From the NCBI RefSeq assembly GCF_003991425.1, contig NZ_CP034346.1, forward strand, positions 657,501 through 721,500: a stretch of DNA of 64,000 nucleotides, written 5' to 3'. Positions within the stretch are counted from its first letter, which is position 1; each line of letters opens with the position of its first letter. Below the pieces are notes generated by a model that had not been told where the DNA came from, did not search any database, and saw only the letters and a list, made by a program, of their open reading frames with translations. Shown here in pieces: positions 5,581-53,215 of the stretch. This DNA is from Paenibacillus lutimineralis. Lineage in GTDB: Bacteria > Bacillota > Bacilli > Paenibacillales > Paenibacillaceae. Both the position numbers and the translations under genes were made by a program.

Positions 5581-7272
5581 ATGCAGATGTTCAAAAAAAG
5601 GCTTGGCGAGCTTCTCTTAGAGTCTGAGATTATAACGGAAGCGGAGTTGCAGGCTGCACTGGAGGAACAACGGCATTCCCGAAAGAAGCTCGGTGATATT
5701 CTGTTGTCGCAGGGCGTTATGACAGAACATCAATTGATCGAGGTGCTTGAATTTCAACTGGGAATTCCTCATGTGACACTATCGCGGTATCAAATCGATT
5801 CTAAGCTGGCCCAGATTGTGCCCGAGGGTCTGGCCAGACGGTATCATGTATTGCCGATCAGAGCGGATGGACGCAAGCTGATGATTGCAATGACGGACCC
5901 GCTTGATTTGCTCGTGATTGATGATCTACGGATGAGCACCGGCTTTACGATCGAGCCGGCGATTATATCGCAGGGCGAGCTGCAACTCGGGATCGCCAGA
6001 TTATACGGCCTGCAGAACTCCATGAATGAGATGATCAATGACATTAGCAGCGGGGACGGCCATATCGAAGTGGAAGAATCGTCTATTACCGATGAGGATT
6101 CCCCGGTCGTACGGCTGGTGCAGCAGATGATTGAACAAGCCGTTCGGCTTGGTGCAAGCGATATTCATGTTGATCCGATGGAGACGCAAGTGGCGATCCG
6201 CTACCGGATCGATGGCATGCTGCGCAATGAGCGATCCATTCCGAAGGCGATGCAGGGAGTGGTCACGGCACGGCTCAAAATTATGGGCAATCTGAATATC
6301 GCCGAACGCCGACTGCCTCAGGACGGACGGATTAAGCTGTCTGTTGACGGGAAAGGAATCGATATTCGCTTGTCCTCACTGCCGACAGTGCATGGAGAGA
6401 AGATCGTGATGCGTCTTCTGGACACCACATCCGGGATCAAGGGCATCGAGAAGCTTGGTATGACGAAGCACAATCTGGAGCTGTTCAGACGGATGATCGA
6501 GAAGCAGCATGGCATCGTGCTGTTAACCGGACCAACGGGCAGCGGCAAGACGACGACGCTCTATTCCGCGCTGCAGCATTTGAATCAGGAGCAGACCAAC
6601 ATTATTACCGTTGAGGATCCTGTCGAGTACATGCTGGAGGGCGTGAACCAGATGCAGGTGAATACGGGGGCTGGTCTGACCTTCGCCAAGGGGCTTCGCT
6701 CTATCTTGCGCCAGGACCCCAACATTATCATGGTCGGTGAGATCCGCGACTTCGAGACAGCCGAGATCGCGATCCGTGCTTCATTAACTGGTCACTTAGT
6801 ATTCTCGACATTACATACGAACGATGCCGTCAGCACGGTAGTCCGCCTTAGGGATATGGGGCTTGAACCGTATTTGATATCCTCCTCATTAATTGGAGTC
6901 GTAGCCCAGAGGCTAGTCAGATGTATTTGCCCTGATTGCCGAACGGCGTATTCTCCGGATCTGCAGGAGAGGATCTATCTTGAACGTATTGGCGTTCAGG
7001 CCGATACGTTGTATCGCGGGACAGGCTGTGGAACATGCGGCAAGAGCGGGTACAGAGGAAGAATGGCTGTCCATGAGGTGTTGTATCTGGATGATGAGCT
7101 ACGGGCTGCGATCGTGAACGGTGTTCCGATTCAACAGCTGCGCCGCTATTCGTCGGAACGGGGGATGAAGCCATTGTTCGAAGATGGCCTTCTCAAAATG
7201 CAGGAAGGTAAGACAACGCTGCAGGAAATACTTCGGGAGACCGGAGAGGAAGAGGAGGTGAGCGGAAATTGA
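5581..7272 (+). CDS. pilB: Type IV pilus assembly ATPase PilB (GspE family)
   Basis: About 563 residues. An N-terminal MshEN/GspE_N domain (residues 1-150) precedes the hexameric ATPase core: Walker A GPTGSGKTTT, Asp box VEDPVEYMLEGVNQ, Walker B LRQDPNIIMVGEIRD, His box TGHLVFSTLHTND, and a zinc-type tetracysteine CICPDC...CGTCG. It powers pilin polymerisation at the cytoplasmic face. Three ATGs lie at 5578, 5581 and 5587; the GAGG core at 5571-5574 best fits 5581. The stop overlaps the pilT start (TTGA), indicating coupling. First gene of an eight-gene pilus operon. Confidence 0.93.
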   Translation: MQMFKKRLGELLLESEIITEAELQAALEEQRHSRKKLGDILLSQGVMTEHQLIEVLEFQLGIPHVTLSRYQIDSKLAQIVPEGLARRYHVLPIRADGRKLMIAMTDPLDLLVIDDLRMSTGFTIEPAIISQGELQLGIARLYGLQNSMNEMINDISSGDGHIEVEESSITDEDSPVVRLVQQMIEQAVRLGASDIHVDPMETQVAIRYRIDGMLRNERSIPKAMQGVVTARLKIMGNLNIAERRLPQDGRIKLSVDGKGIDIRLSSLPTVHGEKIVMRLLDTTSGIKGIEKLGMTKHNLELFRRMIEKQHGIVLLTGPTGSGKTTTLYSALQHLNQEQTNIITVEDPVEYMLEGVNQMQVNTGAGLTFAKGLRSILRQDPNIIMVGEIRDFETAEIAIRASLTGHLVFSTLHTNDAVSTVVRLRDMGLEPYLISSSLIGVVAQRLVRCICPDCRTAYSPDLQERIYLERIGVQADTLYRGTGCGTCGKSGYRGRMAVHEVLYLDDELRAAIVNGVPIQQLRRYSSERGMKPLFEDGLLKMQEGKTTLQEILRETGEEEEVSGN

Positions 7273-41518: not shown

Positions 41519-42442
41519 GTGGAGCAATTTGCTGAAATGCTAGAAATAGAATTACGCGAAAGTTTAAGAACCTATTTTAGCGTCCCACAGCTCTATGAAC
41601 ACGCACTCGCATGTCTTGAGGACAAAATACAGGAATCTTCTATGCTATTAGGCAAAATGACCGTACTTCACTACCGGATGTTTGCAGGTGAGGATACACG
41701 GGATATTTACAGAGCGGCAGCGGCGATCGAGCTGATGATGCTCGGCCTAGACATCATCGATGATATACAGGACAAGGATAACGGTAAAATGGCATGGAAC
41801 CAGCTTCCGTCCGAAATCGCCCTGAATATCGGGATCGGTATGCTGACGCTCTCAGGGGAGCTTATTCTGGAAACTGGATTCCCCAGTGAACGGAAATTGG
41901 CGGCTGCACAGCTTCTTAATCAGGGGGTTCTTATCGCCGTAAATGGGCAAATGACGGATCTGTATAATGATGTCAGTTCGGAAGAGGAGTACATTGAGAT
42001 GGTATCGCAGAAATCAGCGGCCCTTCTCGTTACGGCCAGCATGATCGGCACGGTGCTGGCAACTGGTGAATGGATTGAGGAAGTTAAGTTGTATGCTGAG
42101 CAGCTCGGCATCGCCGCCCAGATCAAAAATGACATTCGCGATTTGCTTAACTGGGATGACAAGAATGACTTTCTAAATCGAAAAAAGACGCTTCCGACAC
42201 TGTACTTGCTGCAGTCTGTCTCCGATGAAGAACGCTGGATCATCGATTATTTCGAGGGGCGCCTGGATTTCGCCGATGTCGTAGGGCGCAAGCAGGAGGT
42301 TGAGAGGATTATAGAATCAACGGGAACGCTGATTTATACCTCAGTTCGAATGAGGACGCACTACTATCGCTATTTAGAGCACATTGAACGCCTTAATATC
42401 GAGCCGCACTGGAGGGAGAAGATGCTCTCTTTTGCTGAATAA
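41519..42442 (+). CDS. comQ: ComQ-like isoprenyl transferase
   Basis: 307 residues of the polyprenyl synthase fold. The first aspartate-rich motif is LGLDIIDDIQDKDNGK (DDxxD near residue 80). The second, AQIKNDIRDLLNWDDKND (near residue 200), is the N-D-x-x-D form typical of ComQ. ComQ prenylates a Trp of the ComX pre-pheromone and processes it. GTG start with GGAGG six bases upstream. Its identity is fixed by context: a small comX-like gene, a ComP-type kinase and a ComA-type regulator follow. A housekeeping heptaprenyl synthase is the alternative but unlikely here. Confidence 0.85.
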   Translation: MEQFAEMLEIELRESLRTYFSVPQLYEHALACLEDKIQESSMLLGKMTVLHYRMFAGEDTRDIYRAAAAIELMMLGLDIIDDIQDKDNGKMAWNQLPSEIALNIGIGMLTLSGELILETGFPSERKLAAAQLLNQGVLIAVNGQMTDLYNDVSSEEEYIEMVSQKSAALLVTASMIGTVLATGEWIEEVKLYAEQLGIAAQIKNDIRDLLNWDDKNDFLNRKKTLPTLYLLQSVSDEERWIIDYFEGRLDFADVVGRKQEVERIIESTGTLIYTSVRMRTHYYRYLEHIERLNIEPHWREKMLSFAE

Positions 42443-42505
42443 CGGTTGACTGCCATGGGACTCAGAGGGTATTGCACAACATATACCGATGCACCGCATA
42501 GGCGA

Positions 42506-42543
42506 CCGCAAACCCACGCAAATCCCGCAAAAATGTTTGCGGG
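42506..42543. promoter_or_regulatory. Putative ComA-box array upstream of comX-like gene
   Basis: Three direct copies of (C/A)CGCAAA begin at 42506, 42516 and 42525, spaced 9-10 bases. The last forms a perfect palindrome with TTTGCGGG: CCCGCAAA-AATG-TTTGCGGG (42524-42543). CCGCAA and TTGCGG are the half-sites of the B. subtilis ComA box. The palindrome centre lies about 65 bases before the predicted transcription start, a typical activator position. Confidence 0.55.
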
Positions 42544-42563
42544 AAATACGGGAGTGGTTGTCG

Positions 42564-42592
42564 TTTCCAACATCAAAAATGACCTGTATATT
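42564..42592 (+). promoter_or_regulatory. Predicted promoter of comX-comP-comA
   Basis: -35 TTTCCA (42564-42569), spacer exactly 17, -10 TATATT (42587-42592). The weak -35 fits an activator-dependent promoter. A palindrome TTAAGAGG-AAGA-CCTCTTAA (42597-42616) covers the start of the transcript. Confidence 0.45.
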
Positions 42593-42644
42593 GGGCTTAA
42601 GAGGAAGACCTCTTAATCAAATAACCCAATTGGAGGGATTTAAG

Positions 42645-42821
42645 ATGTTGAAAGAACTGATTCAAGCTTTGGTGAAGGATTCTGGTGCAATGATGAATAT
42701 TCGTGAAGGACAGCTTCAATTGGCAGGCATGAGCGCCGTCGAGCAGAGAGCTTTGATCGATGTGCTCAGAGACAAGGGAGATATGAGTAAAGAGCCACTT
42801 CGCTTTATTCCATGGTGTTAA
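42645..42821 (+). CDS. comX: ComX-like pheromone precursor peptide (58 aa)
   Basis: 58 residues, with GGAGGG eight bases upstream of the ATG at 42645. The layout follows ComX precursors: an N-terminal helix (MLKELIQALVKDSGAMMNI), a central REGQLQLAGMSAVEQRALIDVL, similar in pattern to the ComX leader, and a short variable C-terminus EPLRFIPWC. Trp, the residue ComQ modifies in Bacillus, is penultimate and the last residue is Cys, which is unusual. Between comQ-like and comP-like genes, exactly where comX lies. Longer in-frame reading from 42489 has no ribosome site and covers the operator region. Confidence 0.8.
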   Translation: MLKELIQALVKDSGAMMNIREGQLQLAGMSAVEQRALIDVLRDKGDMSKEPLRFIPWC

Positions 42822-42886
42822 TTGGAACACCATTCTTATAAAGAATGCAGATTAAGTGAGCTAACCTAAAATGTGAGGGAACAACA

Positions 42887-45268
42887 TTGGCACATAAAAC
42901 AAAAATGTCGATATTCATAGTTCTAATTAGCATTCTTGTAGGATATTTGTCTTTCTCTATATATAATAATCCTTTTATCGGAGCGAAGGTTGCTGACAAT
43001 GGGGAAGGGCAGTTTGTAGTCACAGATTTCTCTTCCAAGAGCAGTTGGGGGAACGGGAGAATATTAGTTGGGGATATAGTTCTAGAGGTGAACGACCAGC
43101 CAGCAGCGGATTTCTTCACGATCAAGACCTACGGCTTGCTGGAGAGGGCCTCATCCATACTCCTGAATAGAGCAGGAGAGGATGGCACATCATCAAATAT
43201 TTTACTTCACGTATATAACGAGCTATCGTTGAACGAATTGATGATCCAGCTCATCTCACCACTCATCTCCGTACTTCTATTCTCCGGTTTATCGTTCTTC
43301 GTATATCAGAGGCGGAAGGGCGATCCTGCGGCCATTCAGCTGATTCTGTTCTTCTTATCCATTGGAGTCGCTTATTTAAGTTCGCTCTCTTCAGGAAGAG
43401 CTGATCCGGTAGGCAGGATTACAATGACGTTTACGATTCTTATGGTGCCGATCTTCTTCTTGCAATTCATGACGTATTATCTGGATCGCTATCAGGAGAG
43501 AATCGCTAGTCGATATTCCCTAGGGTTCTTCTACGCCGTCATTTGTATGATTCTTGGACTCAATATAAGCAAAATTGTATTTAATTTCGGATCTCCGAAT
43601 GTCATTTCATCATTAATCTTGATTTATTTTATAGGAATTAATATTTACATCGTCTTCAGATTGGTGCAGAAGTTTGTCGCTCATCGTCATGGACCTTTGA
43701 AGTCCTTGTTCAAATTAATTTTGATCGGACATATTATTGGCTTTTTCCCATTTGTATTTTTGTTTGCTGTACCCCAATTGTTCAGAATATCCCTTTTATC
43801 GCCAGAGATCGCTGCGGTATTTCTCTTGACTATTCCAATTGTTTATTTGTATATGTTCACGACTAAGCAGTTGTTCGATATTGATTTTTTAATTAATCGG
43901 TTTTTCTATTATGCCAGCCTGTCATTTCTGCCTACGCTTGTGATTTGTTTGCTAACGGTTCTCATTATGAATCAGGATAATCAATCCTGGGTCAAATGGA
44001 GCCGCTTGTTCCTCGCTTGCTATTTATTGATTACGCTGATGCTGTTCCTGAAGGAATATGCCGATCTTAAGCTGCGTCCCAAGCTCAATAAGGATCTGCA
44101 TAATTTTCAAGGCAGCCTCAATCGGTTTTCTGCTCGAATATCACGTGTTATGAAGCGATCCGATCTGGAACGCGTATTGGAGCAGGAAATCTATAATGTG
44201 CTACCAGTCAAGAAGGTCGCATTCCTTGAGATTAACACGGATCATTTAACGGAGTTTAAGCTTGATGAATCACTTGGCGATATCCAGGATTCTGTCATTG
44301 AAGCGGTTGAGGCCTCAGCAGGCCCTTTGATGATCGGAAGCGTACTGAATGTGGAGCGGGGCATTTGCGTAATCGCGGGGAAGAAGCAGAATATTTTGCA
44401 CTTGATGTGGCTGGATGTGAAGGGAAACAGGACCAAATATAATCTGGATGAACTGGCCTGGCTGCGGACGTTGGCCAACTACAGTGCGATCGTATATGAG
44501 AATTTGTATCTGATCGAGAGTCTGGTCGAGGAACTTGAGGTAGAGTTCCAGAAACATAGGGGAGCTGACTCCTCTCCATGGCTGCTTCGACTAATATTCA
44601 AACTAGCCGAGAAGGAACGGCGAAAGCTGGCTTCGGATCTCCACGATTCCGCGCTTCAGGATCAATTGATCTGGTATCGTAATCTGGAATCCGCGATGCT
44701 GGACCATGATATGTCGTCAGAGCTTCATCAGAAGCTGGTCGATGTTAGAGAAGGCCTACTGGATGTTATCCATCAGATTCGGGAGACATGTAATGAGCTG
44801 CGTCCGCCTTTGCTTCAGGAGATGGGAATTGTTGAAGCTCTGCGAGGGTTATTTGAGCAGGCGCAGATCCGCTCCAATTATGTTATCGATTTTCAATCTG
44901 ATTCATTTATGGCGGATATTAATGATGAGCAAATGCTTACGATATTCCGTATTGTACAGGAGCTGCTCCGTAATGCAGGTAAGCATGCCAAGGCCTCAAA
45001 TATTTTCATATCCCTGGAACAGAAAAATGATATATGGCTTACTTACAAAGATGACGGGATTGGGCTGAAGTTGGAGGATCTCAACGATTCTTATCAGCAT
45101 ATGGGTTTATCAGGCATTAAGGAGAGGGTGCACAGCCTTGAGGGAGCGATCGATTTCAGATCAGAGCCCGGAGAAGGGCTTGAGGTTCAAATATCATTGC
45201 CGCTAGAGTCAGCAAGTATGGACAGAGAAAGCGAGGAGGATTCAGATGGTTCGAATATTGCTGGTTGA
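42887..45268 (+). CDS. comP: ComP-like membrane sensor histidine kinase
   Basis: 793 residues. One membrane helix (residues 8-27) is followed by an extracellular loop with a PDZ-like motif (NGRILVGDIVLEVNDQPAADFF). Six or seven further helices (about residues 115-390) and a linker lead to the HisKA_3 motif ERRKLASDLHDSALQDQLIW (phospho-His near residue 590) and a HATPase domain (QELLRNAGKHAKA, DDGIGL, GLSGIKERV). This is the architecture of ComP, which binds ComX outside and phosphorylates ComA. TTG start with GAGGGA upstream; overlaps the regulator gene by 23 bases. Confidence 0.88.
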   Translation: MAHKTKMSIFIVLISILVGYLSFSIYNNPFIGAKVADNGEGQFVVTDFSSKSSWGNGRILVGDIVLEVNDQPAADFFTIKTYGLLERASSILLNRAGEDGTSSNILLHVYNELSLNELMIQLISPLISVLLFSGLSFFVYQRRKGDPAAIQLILFFLSIGVAYLSSLSSGRADPVGRITMTFTILMVPIFFLQFMTYYLDRYQERIASRYSLGFFYAVICMILGLNISKIVFNFGSPNVISSLILIYFIGINIYIVFRLVQKFVAHRHGPLKSLFKLILIGHIIGFFPFVFLFAVPQLFRISLLSPEIAAVFLLTIPIVYLYMFTTKQLFDIDFLINRFFYYASLSFLPTLVICLLTVLIMNQDNQSWVKWSRLFLACYLLITLMLFLKEYADLKLRPKLNKDLHNFQGSLNRFSARISRVMKRSDLERVLEQEIYNVLPVKKVAFLEINTDHLTEFKLDESLGDIQDSVIEAVEASAGPLMIGSVLNVERGICVIAGKKQNILHLMWLDVKGNRTKYNLDELAWLRTLANYSAIVYENLYLIESLVEELEVEFQKHRGADSSPWLLRLIFKLAEKERRKLASDLHDSALQDQLIWYRNLESAMLDHDMSSELHQKLVDVREGLLDVIHQIRETCNELRPPLLQEMGIVEALRGLFEQAQIRSNYVIDFQSDSFMADINDEQMLTIFRIVQELLRNAGKHAKASNIFISLEQKNDIWLTYKDDGIGLKLEDLNDSYQHMGLSGIKERVHSLEGAIDFRSEPGEGLEVQISLPLESASMDRESEEDSDGSNIAG

Positions 45269-45905
45269 TGATCATCCCTCGGTTGGTGAAGGAACCAAGA
45301 ATATGATTGAGCAGGATCCAGATATGCAGGTCACGGTGTTCATGTCCGCGATAGAAGCGCTGGGGTTGGTGGAGCAGGAGAGCTTCGATGTGATGCTTTT
45401 TGATTTGAACATGCCGATTATAAGCGGGATTGAGCTGACGAAGCGAATTATGAAGGTCAGGCCGGAGAGCCGTATTCTGATATATACGGGGTATGAGATC
45501 AGTCCTAACTTCAACATTCTCGTTGAATCGGGTGTCAGTGGCGTGGTCAGTAAGACGGCGACTCGCGAGCAGCTACTTAATTCGATCCGCTGCGTTCTAC
45601 GCGATGAGGCAGTGATTCCGGTATCGCTGTTGCGTCAACTGCGGCGCAGAGAAATTCGTCTGAACCAAGGGCGGGAAGAGAAGTCGATGGAAGAGGTATC
45701 GATCAATGAGCGGGAGCAGGAAATTCTCCAGGAGGTCTCTAGTGGAAGCAGCAACAAGGATATTGCCTCTAGGCTATTGATGAGCCAGCGAACGGTCGAA
45801 TATAATCTGACACGTATCTTCGAGAAGCTTAATGTACGCTCGCGGTCGGAAGCGATTGTTGAGGCCAGACGACTGGGTCTGATTCACTCCAGTGAGTTCG
45901 TATAG
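45246..45905 (+). CDS. comA: ComA-like response regulator (NarL/FixJ type)
   Basis: 219 residues. The receiver domain has VDDHPSVGEGTKNMIEQDPDM, the phospho-Asp in MLFDLNMP (near residue 55) and ILIYTGYE, wording close to ComA (DDHPAVMEGTK, IVYTGYE). The LuxR-type HTH covers INEREQEILQEVSSGSSNKDIASRLLMSQRTVEYNLTRIFEKLNVRSRSEAI, again close to ComA (RSIEYSLTSIFNKLNVGSRTEA). It overlaps the comP-like gene. Expected to bind the CCGCAA/TTGCGG sites upstream of comX. Target genes outside the window are unknown. Confidence 0.9.
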   Translation: MVRILLVDDHPSVGEGTKNMIEQDPDMQVTVFMSAIEALGLVEQESFDVMLFDLNMPIISGIELTKRIMKVRPESRILIYTGYEISPNFNILVESGVSGVVSKTATREQLLNSIRCVLRDEAVIPVSLLRQLRRREIRLNQGREEKSMEEVSINEREQEILQEVSSGSSNKDIASRLLMSQRTVEYNLTRIFEKLNVRSRSEAIVEARRLGLIHSSEFV

Positions 45906-45916
45906 TGTGAGAAGAG

Positions 45917-45945
45917 AGAGCCATCCCATCGGATGGCTCTTCATG
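45917..45945. terminator. Hairpin between comA-like and tatD genes
   Basis: AGAGCCATCC pairs with GGATGGCTCT around CATC. No strong U-tract, but it lies between convergent genes. Confidence 0.6.
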
Positions 45946-45948
45946 ATA

Positions 45949-46776
45949 TTAGGTAAGGCCATAGAAGCGGCGAGTGTTATCGTACAGCACCTTTCTAGCT
46001 TCCTCCAGCGGTATGCCCCGGATATTTGCCCAGGCCGCTGCCGCGTCATTGACCATTTTGGGATGGGTAGTCTGCCCGCTAAAGGGTCCTTCAAAAGGCC
46101 ACGGGCCGTCCGTCTCCACCATCACCTGGTCAGTCGGATAGACGCGGGCCAGATCGATAATTTCTTCTTCATATAGAATATCAGGAGTGAATGACACGTA
46201 ATAACCGGATTCAGCCATTCTTGCAATCGTCGTAGCCGATCCTTTGAACCAGTGGAAATGCGCCTTCTTAATCTCATATTGCTCCAGAAGATCACAGACT
46301 CGGTCGGCATCGTCATATACGGCATGTAAGACAACCGGTTTATTATGCTTCTTCGCGAATTGCAGCATGAGCTCCAACAGTTGGATGTGCGGCTCCAGGT
46401 CAAAGGATTTCCCCTGCTCGGTAGCCTCCAGCCGTGAATAGTAAGGTAAACCGACCTCACCGACCGCAATCATCTCTGCGGTATGATCCTCCATCCATTG
46501 TAGCAGCAGCTGCAGCTCGTCCTCGGAAGGTACATTCTGTTCCGGATGATAGCCAAAGGCCGGGTATAGAAATCCAGGATTTGATTTGGCGAGCTTCCGA
46601 TTCTCCTGACTGGATTCCAGATCCTTGGAGACAGCGATCATGGCCTCGATGCTATGCTCGCGCATGTCTTGTATGATGGCTGTCCTCTCGTTCGCTTCGT
46701 ACATCTCAAAATGAATATGGGCATCCATCAAAGGCTGCCGCTCCGGCTTTATTAATGGTGAAAGATCTGAACTCAT
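45949..46776 (-). CDS. TatD family metal-dependent hydrolase
   Basis: 275 residues. The amidohydrolase-type TIM barrel of TatD is indicated by LMDAHIHFEMYE (metal-binding HxH near residue 20), MIAVGEVGLPYY (Glu ligand), KPVVLHAVYDDA (His), AHFHWFKGS (His) and DQVMVETDGPWPF (Asp). TatD-type proteins are Mg-dependent DNases or quality-control enzymes. The variant HIHFEMYE and the VGEVGLPYYSR differ somewhat from canonical TatD/YabD, so this is a diverged paralogue. Its 5' end faces the left inverted repeat of the recombinase segment. Confidence 0.85.
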   Translation of the reverse strand: MSSDLSPLIKPERQPLMDAHIHFEMYEANERTAIIQDMREHSIEAMIAVSKDLESSQENRKLAKSNPGFLYPAFGYHPEQNVPSEDELQLLLQWMEDHTAEMIAVGEVGLPYYSRLEATEQGKSFDLEPHIQLLELMLQFAKKHNKPVVLHAVYDDADRVCDLLEQYEIKKAHFHWFKGSATTIARMAESGYYVSFTPDILYEEEIIDLARVYPTDQVMVETDGPWPFEGPFSGQTTHPKMVNDAAAAWANIRGIPLEEARKVLYDNTRRFYGLT

Positions 46777-46870
46777 CAGCGTATTCCTTCCTTTCCTGAA
46801 CGTTCATTTTCACCTTTTACTATACATTTATGGCAGGTCAAATGCTATATCCTCGTGAAATATGGCGGAT

Positions 46871-46896
46871 ATGTCGTACAATATTAATTATGCGAC
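46871..46896. repeat. Left 26-bp inverted repeat flanking the recombinase segment
   Basis: ATGTCGTACAATATT + AATTATGCGAC. The exact reverse complement occurs at 48366-48391. Each copy is itself an imperfect dyad: 4-bp GTCG/CGAC ends with AAT/ATT inner matches, like a core site with two recombinase-binding arms. It lies 30 bases before the recombinase start and also contains possible -10 elements (TACAAT, TATTAAT). Confidence 0.85.
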
Positions 46897-46926
46897 ATGA
46901 CAACACGTCAACAGGAGGCTAATACC

Positions 46927-47892
46927 ATGGAGCTACATAACTATATGATGGAGGTTTCGGAACAATATTTTTTCCATTCGCTGAGCCAAGAATATGGTGA
47001 TGAGCAGATCATACAAATGTATCTGGCAGCATGTGCCAAGGTACCCAATACGAGAAGAAATTATTATCGCGCACTTGAACATTTTCGTGAGTTTTTATCA
47101 GGTATGCCAATGAAGGATGTTACCTGGAGGGAAATCGAGGCTTATAAGCTCTACTTGTCACAGGGAATTTATCGAGAGGGCGGGAGATCCCTCGCACCAG
47201 CGAGTGTTGCAGCATTTATCGCACCGTTGAAGTCCTTCTATAAATGGGGGAGCGACAGCAGTATCGGTATTTTTGAAAATAACCCAACGCTGAGTACAAA
47301 AATCCCGCAAATTGCTATAACAAGCCGCAAAAATTTCTTGACCAAAAAAGAAGTCGGTAAGCTGCTGGATAGTCTGCGTGAACAAAGTCTGCGTAACTAT
47401 TTGATTGGACTTTCCCTCGTCATGCTTGGACTACGTGTCTCTGAGCTTACTCATATTCGTTGGGGAGATTTCCATACAGATCCACTGGAAACGTCGATCT
47501 GGCTAACGATTTCTTATGCTAAGCGCGGGAAAATCCGTGAAGTGAAGATTCCGCATAAACTGTGGAATTTGTATACCGAGCATGCTCAGAGCCTCGAAGA
47601 GAGCAATGATCCAGATCCGGACCTTCTCCTGTTTCCAATTTCACCCAGGCAGATTCAGCGTATTATTCGGGAAGCAGGTGAGCGGTGCAATTTGAGCAAG
47701 AAGCCTACTCCGCACTGGCTGAGACATACGAATGCAACCCTGGCGCTGCTGCAGGGAGCATCACTGCAACAGGTTCAGGAGAGCCTTGGACACTCGCATA
47801 TTAATACAACTCAGAGATACTTACATACAGTAGAACAATTAAAGAAAGCGGCCCCTGATTTTGTTCAGGATTGTTTACAGGAGTTCATTTAA
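46927..47892 (+). CDS. Tyrosine recombinase (XerC/D-like integrase)
   Basis: 321 residues. An N-terminal SAM-like core-binding domain (residues 15-115) is followed by a catalytic domain with all expected residues: Arg in LGLRVSELTHIRW, Lys in YAKRGKIREVKIP, HxxR in PHWLRHTNATLAL, His in SLGHSHINTTQ and the nucleophile Tyr in TQRYLHT. The enzyme should be active. The start at 46927 has AGGAGG eight bases upstream. The gene lies between two exact inverted 26-bp repeats, so it most likely acts on these sites. It lacks an excisionase or phage neighbours. Confidence 0.88.
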   Translation: MELHNYMMEVSEQYFFHSLSQEYGDEQIIQMYLAACAKVPNTRRNYYRALEHFREFLSGMPMKDVTWREIEAYKLYLSQGIYREGGRSLAPASVAAFIAPLKSFYKWGSDSSIGIFENNPTLSTKIPQIAITSRKNFLTKKEVGKLLDSLREQSLRNYLIGLSLVMLGLRVSELTHIRWGDFHTDPLETSIWLTISYAKRGKIREVKIPHKLWNLYTEHAQSLEESNDPDPDLLLFPISPRQIQRIIREAGERCNLSKKPTPHWLRHTNATLALLQGASLQQVQESLGHSHINTTQRYLHTVEQLKKAAPDFVQDCLQEFI

Positions 47893-48365
47893 GTGGAGGA
47901 GAGAAAATTACTGCAATAATGCTGGCTTTTGTCATCTAGCGGCATGTGAATTTAAAAATTACTGCAAAAATGCAGCTTTTTCTTTATTAAATGCCCGATT
48001 TGAGGAGAAATTATAAAAATTCCTGCATATTTGCAGGAATTGTATTGGGATTTAAGAGTATCAAGTGGAAAAGCTGCATACCTGCAGTTTTCTACAATAT
48101 TTCGAATTTAGTGAAGCTGTCATGTCCGTAGAGAGAGAAATCCCCCTGCTATGCATGTATAAGTAGTGAATAGCATGACATTTTTACAGAATTCATCCGA
48201 ATATTTTCCAACTCTATTAAAATGTCAAGCATAAATTTAATAAATTGAATCTTTTTTCCTACAAATGTGACTTTATAGCTGTGCAAACGTTGTTCTTTTG
48301 TCCTATAATGTTAAATAGTTACAATAACAAACCTTACCAATACTCGTTCTTTTTGCATACTCTAC
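47893..48365. other. Non-coding part of the recombinase segment with four phased palindromes
   Basis: No credible gene. CTGCAATAATGCTG (47911), CTGCAAAAATGCAG (47962), CTGCATATTTGCAG (48023) and CTGCATACCTGCAG (48074) share the form CTGCA-N4-TGCAG, the first imperfect. Starts are 51, 61 and 51 bp apart, near whole helical turns. The third is extended by ATTC/GAAT. They may bind the recombinase or an accessory protein. The rest, to 48365, is AT-rich and could carry promoters reading towards the right repeat. Confidence 0.65.
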
Positions 48366-48391
48366 GTCGCATAATTAATATTGTACGACAT
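48366..48391. repeat. Right 26-bp inverted repeat flanking the recombinase segment
   Basis: Exact reverse complement of 46871-46896 (GTCGCATAATTAAT + ATTGTACGACAT). It lies 170 bases before the HD-GYP gene. Inversion between the two copies would flip 1469 bases including the recombinase. Confidence 0.85.
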
Positions 48392-48560
48392 CATTCCCGT
48401 GATGATCATATTTTATTCATATCGGCTAAATTCCGGTATATTTCTACTCTTGATAGGGTGGTAGATTTTTGAAAACTTAAGAGGGGGCGGGCCATAGGAT
48501 AAGCGGGATAATTTGGTGTAACCAGAGCTTCAGGCAGACTAAGTTTTTAGGGGGATAAAC

Positions 48561-49178
48561 GTGGTCGTTTCAGCTGATCTTATAGAACAACTGTATATAG
48601 ATAAGCATTCAGATATGGCATCATGGATCAAGTTATTGTTGTACAAGCATCCTGAGATCTATCATCACTCTGTAAGAGTGGCTATGCTAGCCGAGAAGAT
48701 AGCAAAGCCACTGGAATTGAGCATTGAAGATAAGGGGCAGCTGATTCGCGGCTGCTTCCTACATGATATAGGCAAGTCGATGATTCCCCGCGAGGTTGTG
48801 CTTCGGAAGGAATCGTTGTCAAAGAATCAACTTGAGATTATTAAGCTATACCCTATCATAGGGGCCGAGATGATTGAGAGTAATCCAGGATTTGGCTCGG
48901 ATATTATTCATATCGTTAAGTATCATCAGGAGAGATGGGATGGAGGCGGGTATCCAGAGGGGCTAAATGGGGAAGAGATTCCTTATGCAGCTAGGATCTG
49001 CGCAGTAATCGATACCTTTGACCTGATGATGTCAAGCCGCAAGGGTAACAGGAAATACAAGGTTGGAGATGCTAAGCGTGAGTTATTGAAACTTCGAGGT
49101 ACCGAGTTTGATCCTGAGATTGTGGACGCTTTGAACAAATTGCCGGATCAGGTTCTGAATATTCTTTCACTTGACTAG
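48561..49178 (+). CDS. HD-GYP domain phosphohydrolase
   Basis: 205 residues. HHSVRVAMLAEKIAKPLELS, CFLHDIGKSMIPREVVLRKESLSKNQLEIIKLYPIIGAEMI (HDxGK) and VKYHQERWDGGGYPEGLNGEEIPYAARICAVIDTFDLMMSSR (H-Q-E-x-x-DGxGYP) define an HD-GYP domain. Many of these hydrolyse cyclic di-GMP. The second His of the HHE motif is Gln. No sensor domain is attached. GTG start with AGGGGGA upstream. Its promoter would lie next to or within the recombinase segment, making it a candidate for switching. Confidence 0.87.
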   Translation: MVVSADLIEQLYIDKHSDMASWIKLLLYKHPEIYHHSVRVAMLAEKIAKPLELSIEDKGQLIRGCFLHDIGKSMIPREVVLRKESLSKNQLEIIKLYPIIGAEMIESNPGFGSDIIHIVKYHQERWDGGGYPEGLNGEEIPYAARICAVIDTFDLMMSSRKGNRKYKVGDAKRELLKLRGTEFDPEIVDALNKLPDQVLNILSLD

Positions 49179-49221
49179 GTTTATCTGAAATATTGGACTA
49201 GAAATGGAGGACACATCATTG

Positions 49222-49569
49222 ATGCAAGCAGGCCTACAAATTCTCGAGTACCCGGATGTAAGTGACAAGGAACTGAGAGAAGCAATGATGGCAGGGATGA
49301 GAGTCATAAATCTGCAAGTGGCGTTATCTTTGGAATGTGAGCAGCCTTTACTGCGTATTTGTATGATCGATGCCAAACTTAGAGCCGTTCATCAGGTGTT
49401 CGACAGCAATCCGAAGGTACCGATGTGGTTAGGTAAGGAAGCGAGCAGCGAAGTCTACCATACATCCTGGCTTATTGCCGTAGATACAGAGCCGGAGTAT
49501 ATCCAGCAGTGGGTCCTTCTGATGCAGGATGTCGATCAAGTAAAGATCACCGAGTATATTTACCAATAA
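49222..49569 (+). CDS. Conserved-looking protein of unknown function (115 aa)
   Basis: I do not recognise this protein. From the ATG at 49222 (GGAGG eleven bases upstream) it has 115 residues: no membrane segment, no signal peptide, a mixed alpha/beta appearance (LQILEYPDVSDKELREAMMAGM, LRICMIDAKLRAVHQVF, WVLLMQDVDQVKITEYIY). An ATG at 49204 would add six residues but lacks a ribosome site. It follows the HD-GYP gene by 43 bases on the same strand, probably cotranscribed, and ends before a strong terminator. Confidence 0.6.
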   Translation: MQAGLQILEYPDVSDKELREAMMAGMRVINLQVALSLECEQPLLRICMIDAKLRAVHQVFDSNPKVPMWLGKEASSEVYHTSWLIAVDTEPEYIQQWVLLMQDVDQVKITEYIYQ

Positions 49570-49622
49570 AAAAACCAGCCGAAAGTGACGACAGTAGTCA
49601 ATTCACAGCGGCTGGTTTTTTG
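49570..49622. terminator. Bidirectional intrinsic terminator
   Basis: AAAAAACCAGCCG pairs with CGGCTGGTTTTTT, giving U-tracts on both strands. It serves both the gene at 49222 and the thiamin operon on the minus strand; its right arm lies inside the last codons of the ATPase gene. Confidence 0.88.
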
Positions 49623-50413
49623 TGCATTTGTTCGCGCATTTGAGCGGCGATCTCGCGCTTAAGCTCCAGGAAGCGAGGATCATCAATCAATTGCTCCGAG
49701 CGAGGACGGGCAAAAGGCACTTCGATCTTATGCAGTACGGACGCCGGTCTACTGGAAAATAAATAGATCGTATCAGACAGCATGAGGGCTTCCTCAATAC
49801 TATGTGTGATCATAAGCACGGTGCGCTGATTCTCTTCCCATATATCGAGCAGCCAACGCTGCATATCGCTTCGGGTCAGGGCATCGAGCGCGCTGAAAGG
49901 TTCATCCAGACAGAGCACTTCCTGCGGAGCAAGCAGTCCACGTAAGAAGGAAGCACGCTGTTGCATACCGCCTGACAGCTTGTGCGGGTAAGCCTGTTCG
50001 AATTCGCCCAATCCGGCCTTGGCCAGCCAGGCTCTTGCTTCTTCGCGTGCCGCTTTAATCGGCATACCAGCAATTTCTCTGGACAGAATGACATTGTCGA
50101 GCGTACTGCGCCAAGGGAAAAGCGCTGGCTTCTGCGGAACATAGCTGATGTGGCCACGCTCGCCCGTGATGTCTGCGCCATGCAGCAGGACCTTGCCTGC
50201 GTCTGGATTGACCAGGCCGCCGATGACGTGGAATAAAGTACTCTTCCCGCAGCCGGACGGACCGATTATGGACACGAACTTCCCGATTGGAACGGTTAAT
50301 GAGACATCATTCAGCACAGGTAAACTTTGCTTTCTTTCGCGAAATGCAAGGCGGGCCGTCTGGATTTCCAGAGCGGGAGGGGTCGGCTTATGCTTATTCA
50401 TTTCTGTATTCAT
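49598..50413 (-). CDS. thiZ: ABC transporter ATPase for thiamin precursor (ThiZ-like)
   Basis: 271 residues. Walker A GPSGCGKSTL, Q-loop SYVPQKPALFPW, signature HKLSGGMQQRASFLRGLL, Walker B EVLCLDEPFSALDALTR and H-loop MITHSIEEAL: the NitT/TauT/Ssu-type importer ATPase subfamily. Last gene of an operon led by a TPP riboswitch, with permease and binding protein, so the substrate is probably a thiamin pyrimidine precursor (HMP or formylaminopyrimidine). Confidence 0.87.
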   Translation of the reverse strand: MNTEMNKHKPTPPALEIQTARLAFRERKQSLPVLNDVSLTVPIGKFVSIIGPSGCGKSTLFHVIGGLVNPDAGKVLLHGADITGERGHISYVPQKPALFPWRSTLDNVILSREIAGMPIKAAREEARAWLAKAGLGEFEQAYPHKLSGGMQQRASFLRGLLAPQEVLCLDEPFSALDALTRSDMQRWLLDIWEENQRTVLMITHSIEEALMLSDTIYLFSSRPASVLHKIEVPFARPRSEQLIDDPRFLELKREIAAQMREQMHKKPAAVN

Positions 50414-50428
50414 TGCGTAAGCCCCTTT

Positions 50429-51199
50429 CTATTTATCATCACTGGACGGATGGTAGCGGATAAGCCATTTCTCAATGAATGAGATAAGCAGGAACATCGC
50501 CAGGCTGATCGTTACGATAATCGCAATAGCGACAAATATTTTGTCAGTACGGAAGGAGGACTTCTGCAGCATCATATAATACCCGATTCCTTTGCTCGCA
50601 CCGATCCATTCTGCAATGATCGCCCCCATGACGCTGTAGGTAGCGGCAATCTTCGCTCCAGACATGATCGCGGGTAGCGCATACGGCACCTCCAGCTTGG
50701 TGAAAATATTCCACTTCGAAGCCCCGGCCATCCGCATATAGTCCAGCATGACACGGTCTGTACGGCTTAATCCGTCCATGGCCGCCACTGCGACAGGAAA
50801 GAAGCAGACCAATGTAATGACGATGATCTTAGGCAGGATGCCAAATCCGAACCAGATCATAAGCAGGGGTGCCAAGGCGATGATCGGGACATTCTGACTG
50901 AGAATGATCAGCGGGTAGAGAGCCTTTCTGAGGAAAGGGATATAATGCAGTACAAAAGCGACCAACAGCCCGACAAGAATACCGATCGAGAAACCTAGCA
51001 GCATAAGTCTAAGCGTAGCCTGTGTGTGATCCCACAACCCGGCAGCACCAGCAGCCGCTTCATGAGCGATATCGGCAGGACTCGGCAGCGTCCACTTATT
51101 GATATGAAATAGAGATGTAGCTGTCTGCCATATAATGAGGAACAAGATGACCGCCACAAGGGGCGGCCATACACTGCTCCAGATACGACGAAGCCTCAT
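50429..51199 (-). CDS. thiX: ABC transporter permease for thiamin precursor (ThiX-like)
   Basis: 256 residues, six membrane helices. The EAA loop MDGLSRTDRVMLDYMRMAGASKWNIFTKLEVPYALPAIMSGAKIAATYSVMGAIIAEWIGA is typical of NitT/TauT-type permeases. Start overlaps the stop of the preceding gene (ATGA). Fits the ThiXYZ-type importer under TPP riboswitch control. Confidence 0.87.
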   Translation of the reverse strand: MRLRRIWSSVWPPLVAVILFLIIWQTATSLFHINKWTLPSPADIAHEAAAGAAGLWDHTQATLRLMLLGFSIGILVGLLVAFVLHYIPFLRKALYPLIILSQNVPIIALAPLLMIWFGFGILPKIIVITLVCFFPVAVAAMDGLSRTDRVMLDYMRMAGASKWNIFTKLEVPYALPAIMSGAKIAATYSVMGAIIAEWIGASKGIGYYMMLQKSSFRTDKIFVAIAIIVTISLAMFLLISFIEKWLIRYHPSSDDK

Positions 51200-51489
51200 G
51201 GACGATACTTCTCCGTCAGCTTATCCATGCTGGCACCTTCCGGATTGTAGTAGATTTTAATCTGGGAGATCACATTTTTGCTACCGAATTCGATGACAGC
51301 TTCGTTCATTTCTTTGATGATGTCCAGCAGGTGGCTTAGCTCGCCCTCCATCGTTGTCTCTAGCGGGCTCACCTGATATTTCACGCCAGAAGCCTGGATG
51401 ACTTCAATTGCACGGTCGACGTAAGGAATCGAATCTTCCCCGCCCGGTGTCTTCGGAATAATCTGAATACTTACTAATGCATTAGCCAT
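51196..51489 (-). CDS. MTH1187/YkoF-type thiamin-binding protein
   Basis: 97 residues: MANALVSIQIIPKTPGGEDSIPYVDRAIEVIQASGVKYQVSPLETTMEGELSHLLDIIKEMNEAVIEFGSKNVISQIKIYYNPEG is the MTH1187 (thiamine-binding, formerly DUF77) ferredoxin-like fold. Such proteins bind thiamin or its hydroxymethylpyrimidine moiety in the cytoplasm. AGAGAGGATG upstream sets the start at 51489. Second gene of the operon. Confidence 0.85.
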   Translation of the reverse strand: MANALVSIQIIPKTPGGEDSIPYVDRAIEVIQASGVKYQVSPLETTMEGELSHLLDIIKEMNEAVIEFGSKNVISQIKIYYNPEGASMDKLTEKYRP

Positions 51490-51557
51490 ATATGGACATC
51501 CTCTCTGATACAAAATTTAAGAAACAAGTGGTTTACATTTGTAGCGCGGTCAATTCG

Positions 51558-52592
51558 TTATTTGTTCTCCGGTAGAAAATCATTCGTAAAAGCAGCATCT
51601 GCATCTAGCGGCTTCTCAATCAGCTTCTTCTCATACATCCAATCGGAGTAATTCTGCCATACGGATTGTTTCTGTTCACCCCAACGGGCAGCATCATCCT
51701 GGTATTTCGGGCTAAGCCATTTCTGGCTGGCGATGACCAGATCTTTATCGAGATCAGGTACGGCATTCAGCAGAATATCAGCTGCTTCCTCCGGATGCTG
51801 GATCGCATATTGATATCCTTTGGAGGTGGCACGTAGGAACGCCTTAATTAATTCAGGATCGTCCTTGATCTGCTTCTCATTGGTTGAAATAACCGGAGTG
51901 TAGTAATCGAGCTTATCCGAGTAGTCCTTCACGTAGAGCATATCAAGCGGCTCGCCACGCAACTCGGCTTCGATACCAGTCCAGGCATAGAAGATCCAGG
52001 CAAAATCGATATCTCTCTTCACGGCGGTGAAGAAGTCGGCTTCGCCCATATTGATAATTTTTACCTTATTAACATCTCCGCCATCGATATCCATGATCGA
52101 TTTCATGACGGCCTCTTCGACGGGTGAACCCCAGCCGCCGTAGGTCTTGCCTTCAAAGTCCTTAGGTGCCTTGATGCTCCGGTCCACAGGCGCGGCGAAG
52201 CCGGATGTATTATGCTGAATAACGGCCGCGATCGAGACGAGGGGCACGCCTTGAGTACGACCTTGTGTCACGCTCTCCTGATAGCTGATTCCGAAAGGTA
52301 CTTCACCGGATGCAACCATTGCGTCCGCACCGCCAGAGCCCGGCAGCAGTATGTCTAGCTTCAGGCCCTCCTCTTCATAGAACCCTTTGGCCTGTGCAAC
52401 ATAGAGACCGGTATGGTTCGTATTCGGACTCCAGTCCAGCACGAATTTAACATCACGCAGCTCCTTCGTCTGTCCTCCCGTTGCTGCATTTCCGTTAGCG
52501 GCCGATGTGTTGGCATTATTCGCTTTGCCGCAGCCCGCGATGATGACAAGCAGGCAGGACAAGGCAAGCAGAACCCATTTTGATCGATGCAA
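51558..52592 (-). CDS. thiY: Thiamin-precursor substrate-binding lipoprotein (ThiY-like, NMT1/THI5 family)
   Basis: 344 residues from a TTG at 52592 (GGAGGGA eight bases upstream). Lipobox LLVIIAGCGK, then the NMT1/THI5-like fold: LRDVKFVLDWSPNTNHTGLYVAQAKGFYEEEGLKLDILLPGSGGADAMVASGEVPFGISYQESV. This is the ThiY type that binds N-formyl-4-amino-5-aminomethyl-2-methylpyrimidine or HMP. First coding gene after the TPP riboswitch. A 313-bp repeat lies between the riboswitch terminator and this gene. Confidence 0.9.
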   Translation of the reverse strand: MHRSKWVLLALSCLLVIIAGCGKANNANTSAANGNAATGGQTKELRDVKFVLDWSPNTNHTGLYVAQAKGFYEEEGLKLDILLPGSGGADAMVASGEVPFGISYQESVTQGRTQGVPLVSIAAVIQHNTSGFAAPVDRSIKAPKDFEGKTYGGWGSPVEEAVMKSIMDIDGGDVNKVKIINMGEADFFTAVKRDIDFAWIFYAWTGIEAELRGEPLDMLYVKDYSDKLDYYTPVISTNEKQIKDDPELIKAFLRATSKGYQYAIQHPEEAADILLNAVPDLDKDLVIASQKWLSPKYQDDAARWGEQKQSVWQNYSDWMYEKKLIEKPLDADAAFTNDFLPENK

Positions 52593-52637
52593 TGATATTC
52601 CCTCCTTCAAGATGTCTAATCCGTATTCACTTCTAGA

Positions 52638-53060: not shown

Positions 53061-53099
53061 AGGTGCACTTGAATATGAGCATAGCTTCATACCTGCATT

Positions 53100-53190
53100 T
53101 CTTCCTACGCTGGCATTACCCAGATCAGGTTAAAGGGTCAGTATCTTCTCGGGATACAATCTCAGCCGGCCTATTCCAGCTCCCCTGAAC
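53100..53190 (-). promoter_or_regulatory. TPP riboswitch (THI element)
   Basis: Read on the minus strand: GGGGAGCTGGAATAGGC, CTGAGATTGTATC, ACCCTTTAACCTGATCTGGG, TAATGCCAGCGTAGG. These are the conserved P1-P5 and bulge sequences of the TPP aptamer. With TPP bound, the terminator at 53031 should form and shut the thiamin-precursor transporter operon. Confidence 0.95.
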
Positions 53191-53215
53191 TATTGAACTA
53201 CGGATTACAATTGCC

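Follow-up and report, generated by a model that had tools for sequence, protein, structure and literature searches.

In Paenibacillus lutimineralis, a segment of 1521 bp bounded by two inverted recombination sites holds a tyrosine recombinase gene and a predicted outward promoter. It most probably acts as a self-contained phase switch, in which the recombinase would invert its own segment and move a captured promoter toward or away from the gene of an HD-GYP-type HD domain protein; we put the probability of this reading at roughly 0.87. The segment was analysed within a stretch of 64,000 nucleotides of the P. lutimineralis genome, hereafter called the window. In all, 129 loci were compared, namely the window and 128 stretches from relatives (Paenibacillus and kin), with one genome per species, and two partial or broken recombinase matches (in G281 and G513) were left out. 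Site counts were made on 125 of these loci, after removal of L065 and L108, which end at the site, and of L067 and L072.

The segment and its recombinase

Positions 46871 to 48391 of the window delimit the segment, both sites included. Its ends are formed by an exact 26-bp inverted repeat, with arms at 46871-46896 (forward strand) and 48366-48391 (reverse strand) that are 100% complementary and 1469 nt apart in a repeat search of the window. With up to 3 mismatches allowed, 2 matches to the repeat were found in the window, against 0 in 100 dinucleotide shuffles. No third copy was detected at this threshold in the whole single-contig genome of 6,497,679 bases, where a reversed-pattern control also gave 0. 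The 28-bp cores of the sites occupy 46871-46898 on the left, with the outer arm on the tatD side, and 48364-48391 on the right, with the outer arm on the HD side. Relatives as well as the window show the short inverted repeats expected at the ends of an inverton. An earlier note, made on the window, had described exact 26-bp inverted repeats bracketing a tyrosine recombinase, each copy a two-armed dyad. The repeat search and the genome-wide scan bear out the repeats, and the dyad is real, the site fitting an 11+6+11 layout across loci. As to the distances from the recombinase gene, given as 30 nt before and 474 nt after it, the first is right and the second is 473 nt.

The recombinase is the only gene inside the segment. 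It is read on the forward strand from 46927 to 47892 and encodes an Xer-like protein of 321 residues, identified by its Pfam domains and by alignment. The ATG at 46927 is the best start, with the ribosome-binding site AGGAGG, read from the sequence, at 46913-46918 in front of it; a further ATG upstream, at 46897, is an alternative. Three copies of a 27-nt hairpin-forming repeat are found 3′ of the gene, at 47904-48042. The protein matches Pfam Phage_integrase with 93.5 bits (cut-off 27.1), as well as SAM-like core-binding domains, and no serine-recombinase match was present among the Pfam matches, which argues against a Hin-type enzyme. The columns taken as catalytic for the family (R, K, HxxR, H, Y) do not vary across the alignment (129 of 129 recombinases), in agreement with the earlier claim that all catalytic residues are in place. 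Scores of 114.6 bits for XerC (cut-off 335.15) and 103.9 bits for XerD (cut-off 329.6) do not identify the protein as either equivalog, and it also falls far under the NCBIfam cut-off for XerA. The NCBIfam models of tyrosine-type DNA invertases, about 200 residues long, gave 38.8 bits against cut-offs of 221-222. Full-length members of the family are ~48-100% identical to the window's protein and other listed tyrosine recombinases ~24-35%, short fragments apart; the next best recombinase listed in the window's own genome is about 27% identical.

No sign of a promoter was found inside the 5′ end of the segment, where exact outward and inward TATAAT boxes occur in 5 and 2 of 125 loci respectively, for 4.7 and 5.0 in shuffles. 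A −35-like hexamer precedes the upstream outer arm in 30 of 125 loci (16.0 expected) and the downstream arm in 10 (17.7 expected). Since this enrichment is mild and seen only at the upstream arm, a recombinase promoter borne by the site is kept as a mere lead.

Inversion and the recombination sites

Inversion of the segment is visible between the window and Paenibacillus sp. GM2 (locus L044). Window positions 46871-48391 align to 8029-6509 of L044, on the opposite strand, with 89.2% identity and breakpoints at the repeats, and the flanks of L044 are collinear with window positions 45000-46896 (88.7%) and 48366-50000 (91.8%). The segment of D2_2 (L045) has the same orientation as the window. 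Two observations had been named in the earlier note as telling against a switch, a single orientation in all strains and loss of the repeats from relatives that keep the recombinase. Neither was made: with one genome compared per species, L044 proved exactly inverted, and nearly all the compared relatives that keep the recombinase have retained the repeats. They flank the recombinase in 127 of the 129 loci and lie beside it in one, and no site was found at L072, where the recombinase is present. In the scan that detected them, shuffled flanks reached a best score of 12 over the 129 loci, compared to 15 for the weakest real locus.

The consensus of the sites over 125 loci is ATGTCGNAYAA-N6-TTRTNCGACAT, in an 11+6+11 layout. 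In 124 of 125 loci both copies have the same central six bases, a number to be read knowing that repeats were found by similarity, so that unlike centres could escape, and that the scan missed only 2 of 129 loci. Centres of shuffled partners agreed 6.2 times on average and 14 times at most (2000 shuffles), and 38 different centres were counted. The fate of the outer arms was followed in flipped pairs of loci. L056 and L057 both carry the outer arm CGCATAAT on the tatD side and CGTACAAT on the HD side, though the segment is flipped between them. Similarly, L153 and L157, also flipped, have CGTACAAT as the outer arm toward the target and CGCACAAT as the opposite one, the non-target arms differing in one outermost base. 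That the outer arms stay with the flanks while the inside flips is the prediction of strand exchange in the centre.

A few sites depart from this picture. The sole pair with unlike centres, L100 (G131), has kept its inner arm and had its outer arm replaced, leaving one full site only, and may result from off-target recombination or from an assembly effect. At L132 (G109), the repeat of the 3′ site extends to 73 nt and includes a copy of the recombinase's own 5′ end, corresponding to a partial duplication or an assembly effect. At L067 (G001), an exact inverted site pair beside the recombinase bounds about 240 bp without the recombinase (oriented positions ~6490-6735); this is a fim-like layout within the same recombinase family.

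The site pattern was also sought across the 40 genus genomes. In the 20 that have the recombinase, it was found at recombinase loci only, plus one second junction in G038. In G009 and G029, the contigs with tatD and with HD have it as well. The four remaining matches are in G005, G039 and G022; these genomes lack the recombinase family, and the reversed-pattern control scores in them too.

A predicted promoter inside the segment

The outward promoter sought inside an inverton is predicted at 48295-48313 of the window, on the forward strand (genome position G000:C1:705795-705813). Its core, CTTTTGTCCTATAATGTTA, has a −10 box TATAAT at 48304-48309 and appears sigma-A-like. Between the recombinase and the 3′ site, an exact outward TATAAT was found in 92 of 125 loci, against 20.4 in base shuffles, and an exact TATAAT on the opposite strand in 4, against 21.5; this contrast is lost when one mismatch is allowed (120 outward versus 109 opposite), and 33 loci have no exact outward box. 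Across the window's clade and in most near relatives, ~53-62 nt separate the box from the site. Among the 74 promoters with an exact TATAAT and enough sequence, a TTG was found 17 nt upstream in 35 and 18 nt upstream in 2, and none at 16-18 nt in 37. Outward −10 boxes were not enriched in the flanks or at the 5′ end of the segment, compared to shuffles of the 125 loci.

The origin of this promoter is suggested by its distribution. Of the 40 genus genomes, 19 have a single copy of the 19-base core CTTTTGNCCTATAATRTNA each, and the other 21 have none. All 19 occurrences are at HD loci, 14 inside the segment and 5 directly before a cassette-free HD gene. The five cassette-free loci are those of G014, G015 and G026, where tatD and HD lie side by side, and the second HD loci of G034 and G038; no recombinase match was found in these stretches. 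As the core always stands at HD, five times without the cassette, the cassette most likely captured the HD gene's own promoter, and the invertible promoter would most simply be the ancestral promoter of that gene.

Genes beside the segment

The putative target in the window is the gene of a 205 aa HD-GYP-type HD domain protein (48561-49178, forward strand), as indicated by Pfam, the loci of relatives and the promoter core. It is adjoined by a gene on the same strand, at 49204-49569, for a small protein of 121 aa that was present in 9 of the 41 loci first compared and has no Pfam or NCBIfam match. Targets were sought in four families only, HD and the chemotaxis families CheW, CheA and MCP. An outward gene of one of these lies within 1.2 kb on one side of the segment in 122 of 129 loci, including L072, which has no site, and on both sides in 0. 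The nearest is HD in 101 loci, CheW in 18, MCP in 2 and CheA in 1. HD is often followed by CheW, CheA and MCP genes, and in other lineages the putative target precedes, or is itself, a chemosensory gene. Seven of the 129 loci have no recognised target. L123, L124, L126, L127, L131 and L133 have intact site pairs and no HD or Che gene nearby, and perhaps a different target.

In 26 loci, the window among them, the target lies at the promoter-bearing end of the segment; in 96 it lies at the other end. The open frame of the target starts at most 160 nt from the segment in 111 of 122 loci. Given this short distance and the lack of −10 enrichment in the flanks or at the segment's 5′ end, the flipped state is probably OFF, and the orientation of the window would be ON.

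All seven residues checked in the HD, HHE and GYP motifs are kept in 95 of the 101 HD targets, and a histidine at each of positions 97 and 123 is kept by 98 of 101 relatives. The HD proteins of the window and of L044 have Y97 and Q123 instead of histidines, L045 also N122, and L141, L146 and L147 have F68. Because Y97 and Q123 replace conserved histidines, the window's HD protein is possibly a degenerate phosphodiesterase. At the Rfam gathering score, no riboswitch was found in the HD leader. The only match in the window is a TPP riboswitch elsewhere, at 53085-53196 on the minus strand (70.5 bits), upstream of same-strand ABC-transporter-like genes (51558-52610 and on).

The switch might be reciprocal, one orientation driving HD and the other driving the gene on the opposite side. 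In the window this is the divergent gene of a TatD-family nuclease (45949-46776, reverse strand), which points outward near the left site, with an open frame from 68 nt, and would face the promoter after inversion. On the non-target side of the 122 loci, however, the first long frame is outward in 66, inward in 52 and absent in 4, in a crude count that gives 108 outward and 14 inward on the target side. With directions so near even, a second target is no general property, and we regard a reciprocal switch as rather unlikely.

Orientation among relatives and within assemblies

Among the 257 locus pairs with both flanks homologous, 227 have the segment in the same orientation and 30 in inverted orientation. 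The inverted pairs involve L044, L057, L141 versus L146 and L147, L153 versus L157 and L165, and one weak pair, L063 and L142. A quick recombinase tree (129 proteins, 122 labelled loci) requires at least 14 orientation changes, at least 9 of which are forced by supported branches. Orientation is clustered on this tree, with 14 changes against 23.9 for shuffled labels, and one clade of 17 loci is entirely in the OFF-like state. Such clustering, together with this clade, means that switching may be rare or locked in places.

Pushed further, the same observations would fit a rare evolutionary inversion, in which the segment seldom flips, its orientation is fixed within a species and it has no day-to-day role; a comparison of one genome per species is favourable to this reading too. 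It is countered by the close relatives that differ in orientation, and by the assemblies themselves. The recombinase-bearing contig of G038 stops precisely at the 3′ site; a second contig terminates in another flank followed by the site and by 47 bases that match the 5′ end of the same recombinase perfectly. In G325, a contig likewise ends at the 3′ site, and the same 5′ end also follows a second flank, up to a run of N; 35 bases are identical at this second junction, site included. In G327 (L129), the same 92 bases, flank and site, are found at both ends of the segment, one of which is a contig end. These junctions of both orientations suggest that the sequenced DNA was of mixed state. The assemblies of G009 and G029 have no recombinase, and their tatD-side and HD-side contigs stop 4 and 71 bases beyond the site pattern; in G029, we read both contig ends as being in the same, flipped, state. 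Contig breaks at the sites are expected if both orientations are present; assembly error could also give breaks and double junctions.

Short contigs in the databases were considered as well. One of them is exactly as long as the segment and its two sites together, 1521 bp, and encodes a recombinase that differs from the window's at 1 of 321 residues. Among the best 120 of 344 protein matches, 31 proteins have a longest contig below 2 kb; 22 of these contigs measure 1105-1210 bp, two 1521 and 1569 bp, and seven have lengths elsewhere. The segment itself is 1.5 kb long in the window and ~1.1-1.2 kb in most relatives. Six of the short-contig proteins are at least 97% identical to a compared locus, and their contigs have the exact segment length in three cases, differ by 1 in one, and by 24 and 85 in two. 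This supports mixed orientation without proving it.

Both orientations, as looked for in an inverton, are found between species, and within sequenced DNA at assembly junctions only; the window's genome consists of one contig, in one orientation. With the double junctions, the contigs of G009 and G029 that break at or near the site and lack the segment, and the near-identical recombinase on its 1521-bp contig all against it, we hold a rare inversion to be unlikely, and keep the phase switch as the preferred reading.

Hairpins in the segment

The tail between the recombinase and the right site is AT-rich. Between the recombinase and the promoter, a repeat and terminator search found terminator-like hairpins with CTGCA/TGCAG stems at 47961-48041; these include 3 of the 6 terminator-like sites of the 46700-48650 region, against a mean of 1.5 in shuffles. 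Orientation might then act via transcript termination or antisense RNA, and not by promoter movement, as in the C. difficile flg and cwpV switches, which are described as acting after initiation (PMC9286219). The window shares the long hairpin tail (466-474 nt), however, with its two nearest relatives, and this stretch measures ~50-180 nt in most other loci. The enriched element is the outward −10 box, whose core is the HD promoter of cassette-free loci. We give termination or antisense RNA little chance of being the mode of action, and retain promoter inversion.

Distribution among relatives

The recombinase was searched in 98 relatives and in 40 genus, 394 family, 392 order and 398 phylum genomes, these sets overlapping. 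At a threshold of 1e-60, it was found in 20 of 40 genus, 84 of 394 family (a patchy distribution), 82 of 392 order and 1 of 398 phylum genomes, the only match in the evenly drawn phylum set being the window's own genome. Beyond the order, Tepidibacillus, Effusibacillus and Aneurinibacillus are named among the best 120 of 344 protein matches. Some genomes have two or three copies.

Tyrosine recombinases generally match phage integrase families. When ten proteins of the 41519-52610 region were compared with phage families, no structural, packaging or lysis match was obtained and the recombinase alone matched integration families; the earlier remark that no phage genes lie nearby is upheld for its nine neighbours. 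No mobility genes or cargo were seen among the neighbours compared. That the segment is an integrated mobile element with inverted repeats as its ends (a tyrosine-recombinase transposon or integrative element) is scarcely credible: cassette-free tatD-HD loci exist (L191-L193), so that the cassette was gained or lost as a unit, and several copies can be present in one genome, but the recombinase has an outward HD, CheW, CheA or MCP gene for a neighbour in 122 of 129 loci, the site pattern is confined to recombinase loci in the 20 genus genomes (one G038 junction apart), the segment holds no other gene, crossing-over yields inversion with flanks that keep their outer arms, and the promoter inside matches the target's own. 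The preference of the earlier note for a stand-alone phase switch over an integrated element is supported by the inverted relative, the persistent repeats and the double junctions.

Discussion

In the switch that we propose, the tyrosine recombinase would bind two inverted 28-bp dif-like sites and exchange strands in their identical 6-bp centres. The segment, which carries the recombinase and an outward promoter beside the recombinase's 3′ site, would be reversibly inverted. With the promoter facing HD, as in the window, HD would be transcribed (ON). In the flipped state, the promoter would fire the other way, in the window toward tatD, and HD, with little or no promoter of its own left, would be OFF. 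Taking the ancestral promoter of HD into the segment would have made the HD gene phase-variable. The sequences themselves show the sites, their matching centres, the inversion between species, the outer half-sites remaining with their flanks and the promoter shared with cassette-free relatives; we infer that this recombinase is the catalyst, that cells of one culture switch, that HD goes ON and OFF, and that c-di-GMP and motility may be affected. If the pdcB switch of C. difficile is a guide, inversion would act on the c-di-GMP level and, through it, on whether cells are motile or sessile.

A broader proposal is put forward tentatively, and we incline against it as a whole. The loci could be a family of autonomous promoter-capturing cassettes in Paenibacillus and kin, dedicated to c-di-GMP and chemosensory genes, each with its own recombinase, a site pair with a private centre and its target's promoter. 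The outer arm of the site might also serve the recombinase gene as its −10 box, in which case flipping would swap the flank that supplies the −35 box and the cassette would set its flipping rate by orientation.

The earlier note's reading as a switch stands; it had missed the switched outward promoter, which matches the HD gene's own, and the wide distribution. If the switch works in this way, many Paenibacillus, Cohnella and related bacteria should divide into two heritable states of c-di-GMP or chemosensory signalling. Two-state behaviours might arise from such signalling, the builder and explorer morphotypes of P. vortex (PMC3908376) being a possible example. The 124 natural site pairs, with 38 centres, lie beside their cognate recombinases and make a ready set for the study of recombinase-site co-evolution, and the cassettes would be small one-protein inversion modules. 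No account of this Paenibacillus switch was found in the literature searched, which covers subscription journals only sparsely.

Comparison with known systems

A dif site is 28 bp long, in an 11+6+11 layout. The sites described here have the same length and layout, and the protein is XerC/D/A-like. Unlike the Xer/dif system, the recombinase scores far below the XerC, XerD and XerA cut-offs, the sites are paired and inverted around its gene, and the distribution is patchy.

Hin is a serine recombinase, and its segment carries an outward promoter. The Salmonella Hin gene lies within the invertible segment (PMC5903667). The Paenibacillus segment likewise contains the recombinase gene and an outward promoter, but the enzyme is a tyrosine recombinase and the sites are dif-like. 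Fim-type switches also act by promoter inversion, before surface genes, their targets being fimbriae. The fim segments of E. coli and Photorhabdus, of 296 and 266 bp, are given as holding the promoter only, and a putative segment of Providencia stuartii, of 844 bp, as enclosing a recombinase ORF (PMC5903667). Promoter inversion is common to these and to the Paenibacillus segment, and the P. stuartii segment shares the enclosed recombinase; in contrast to E. coli and Photorhabdus, the Paenibacillus segment carries the recombinase, and its target would be a signalling gene, not fimbriae. For Clostridia, PMC5903667 reports inversion signatures beside genes of the two kinds met here as targets, an HD-type phosphodiesterase gene in Desulfitobacterium dehalogenans and chemotaxis genes in Clostridium thermocellum, in a section that names no recombinase or promoter for them.

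In Clostridioides difficile, an invertible promoter lies before the c-di-GMP phosphodiesterase gene pdcB, and c-di-GMP levels differ between locked strains; PdcB belongs to the EAL type, and the recombinase of the switch is not identified as far as PMC9286219 reports. The invertible promoter, the site-specific inversion and a c-di-GMP phosphodiesterase-like target are common to both, whereas here the target would be HD-GYP-type or chemosensory and the recombinase is encoded within the segment, between sites of its own. Invertible promoters are already known, and so are recombinases inside their own segment, as with Hin and the putative P. stuartii segment. What is new is an Xer-like recombinase inside its own cassette of dif-like sites, the apparently captured promoter, the private site centres, and the breadth of the cassette in the order.
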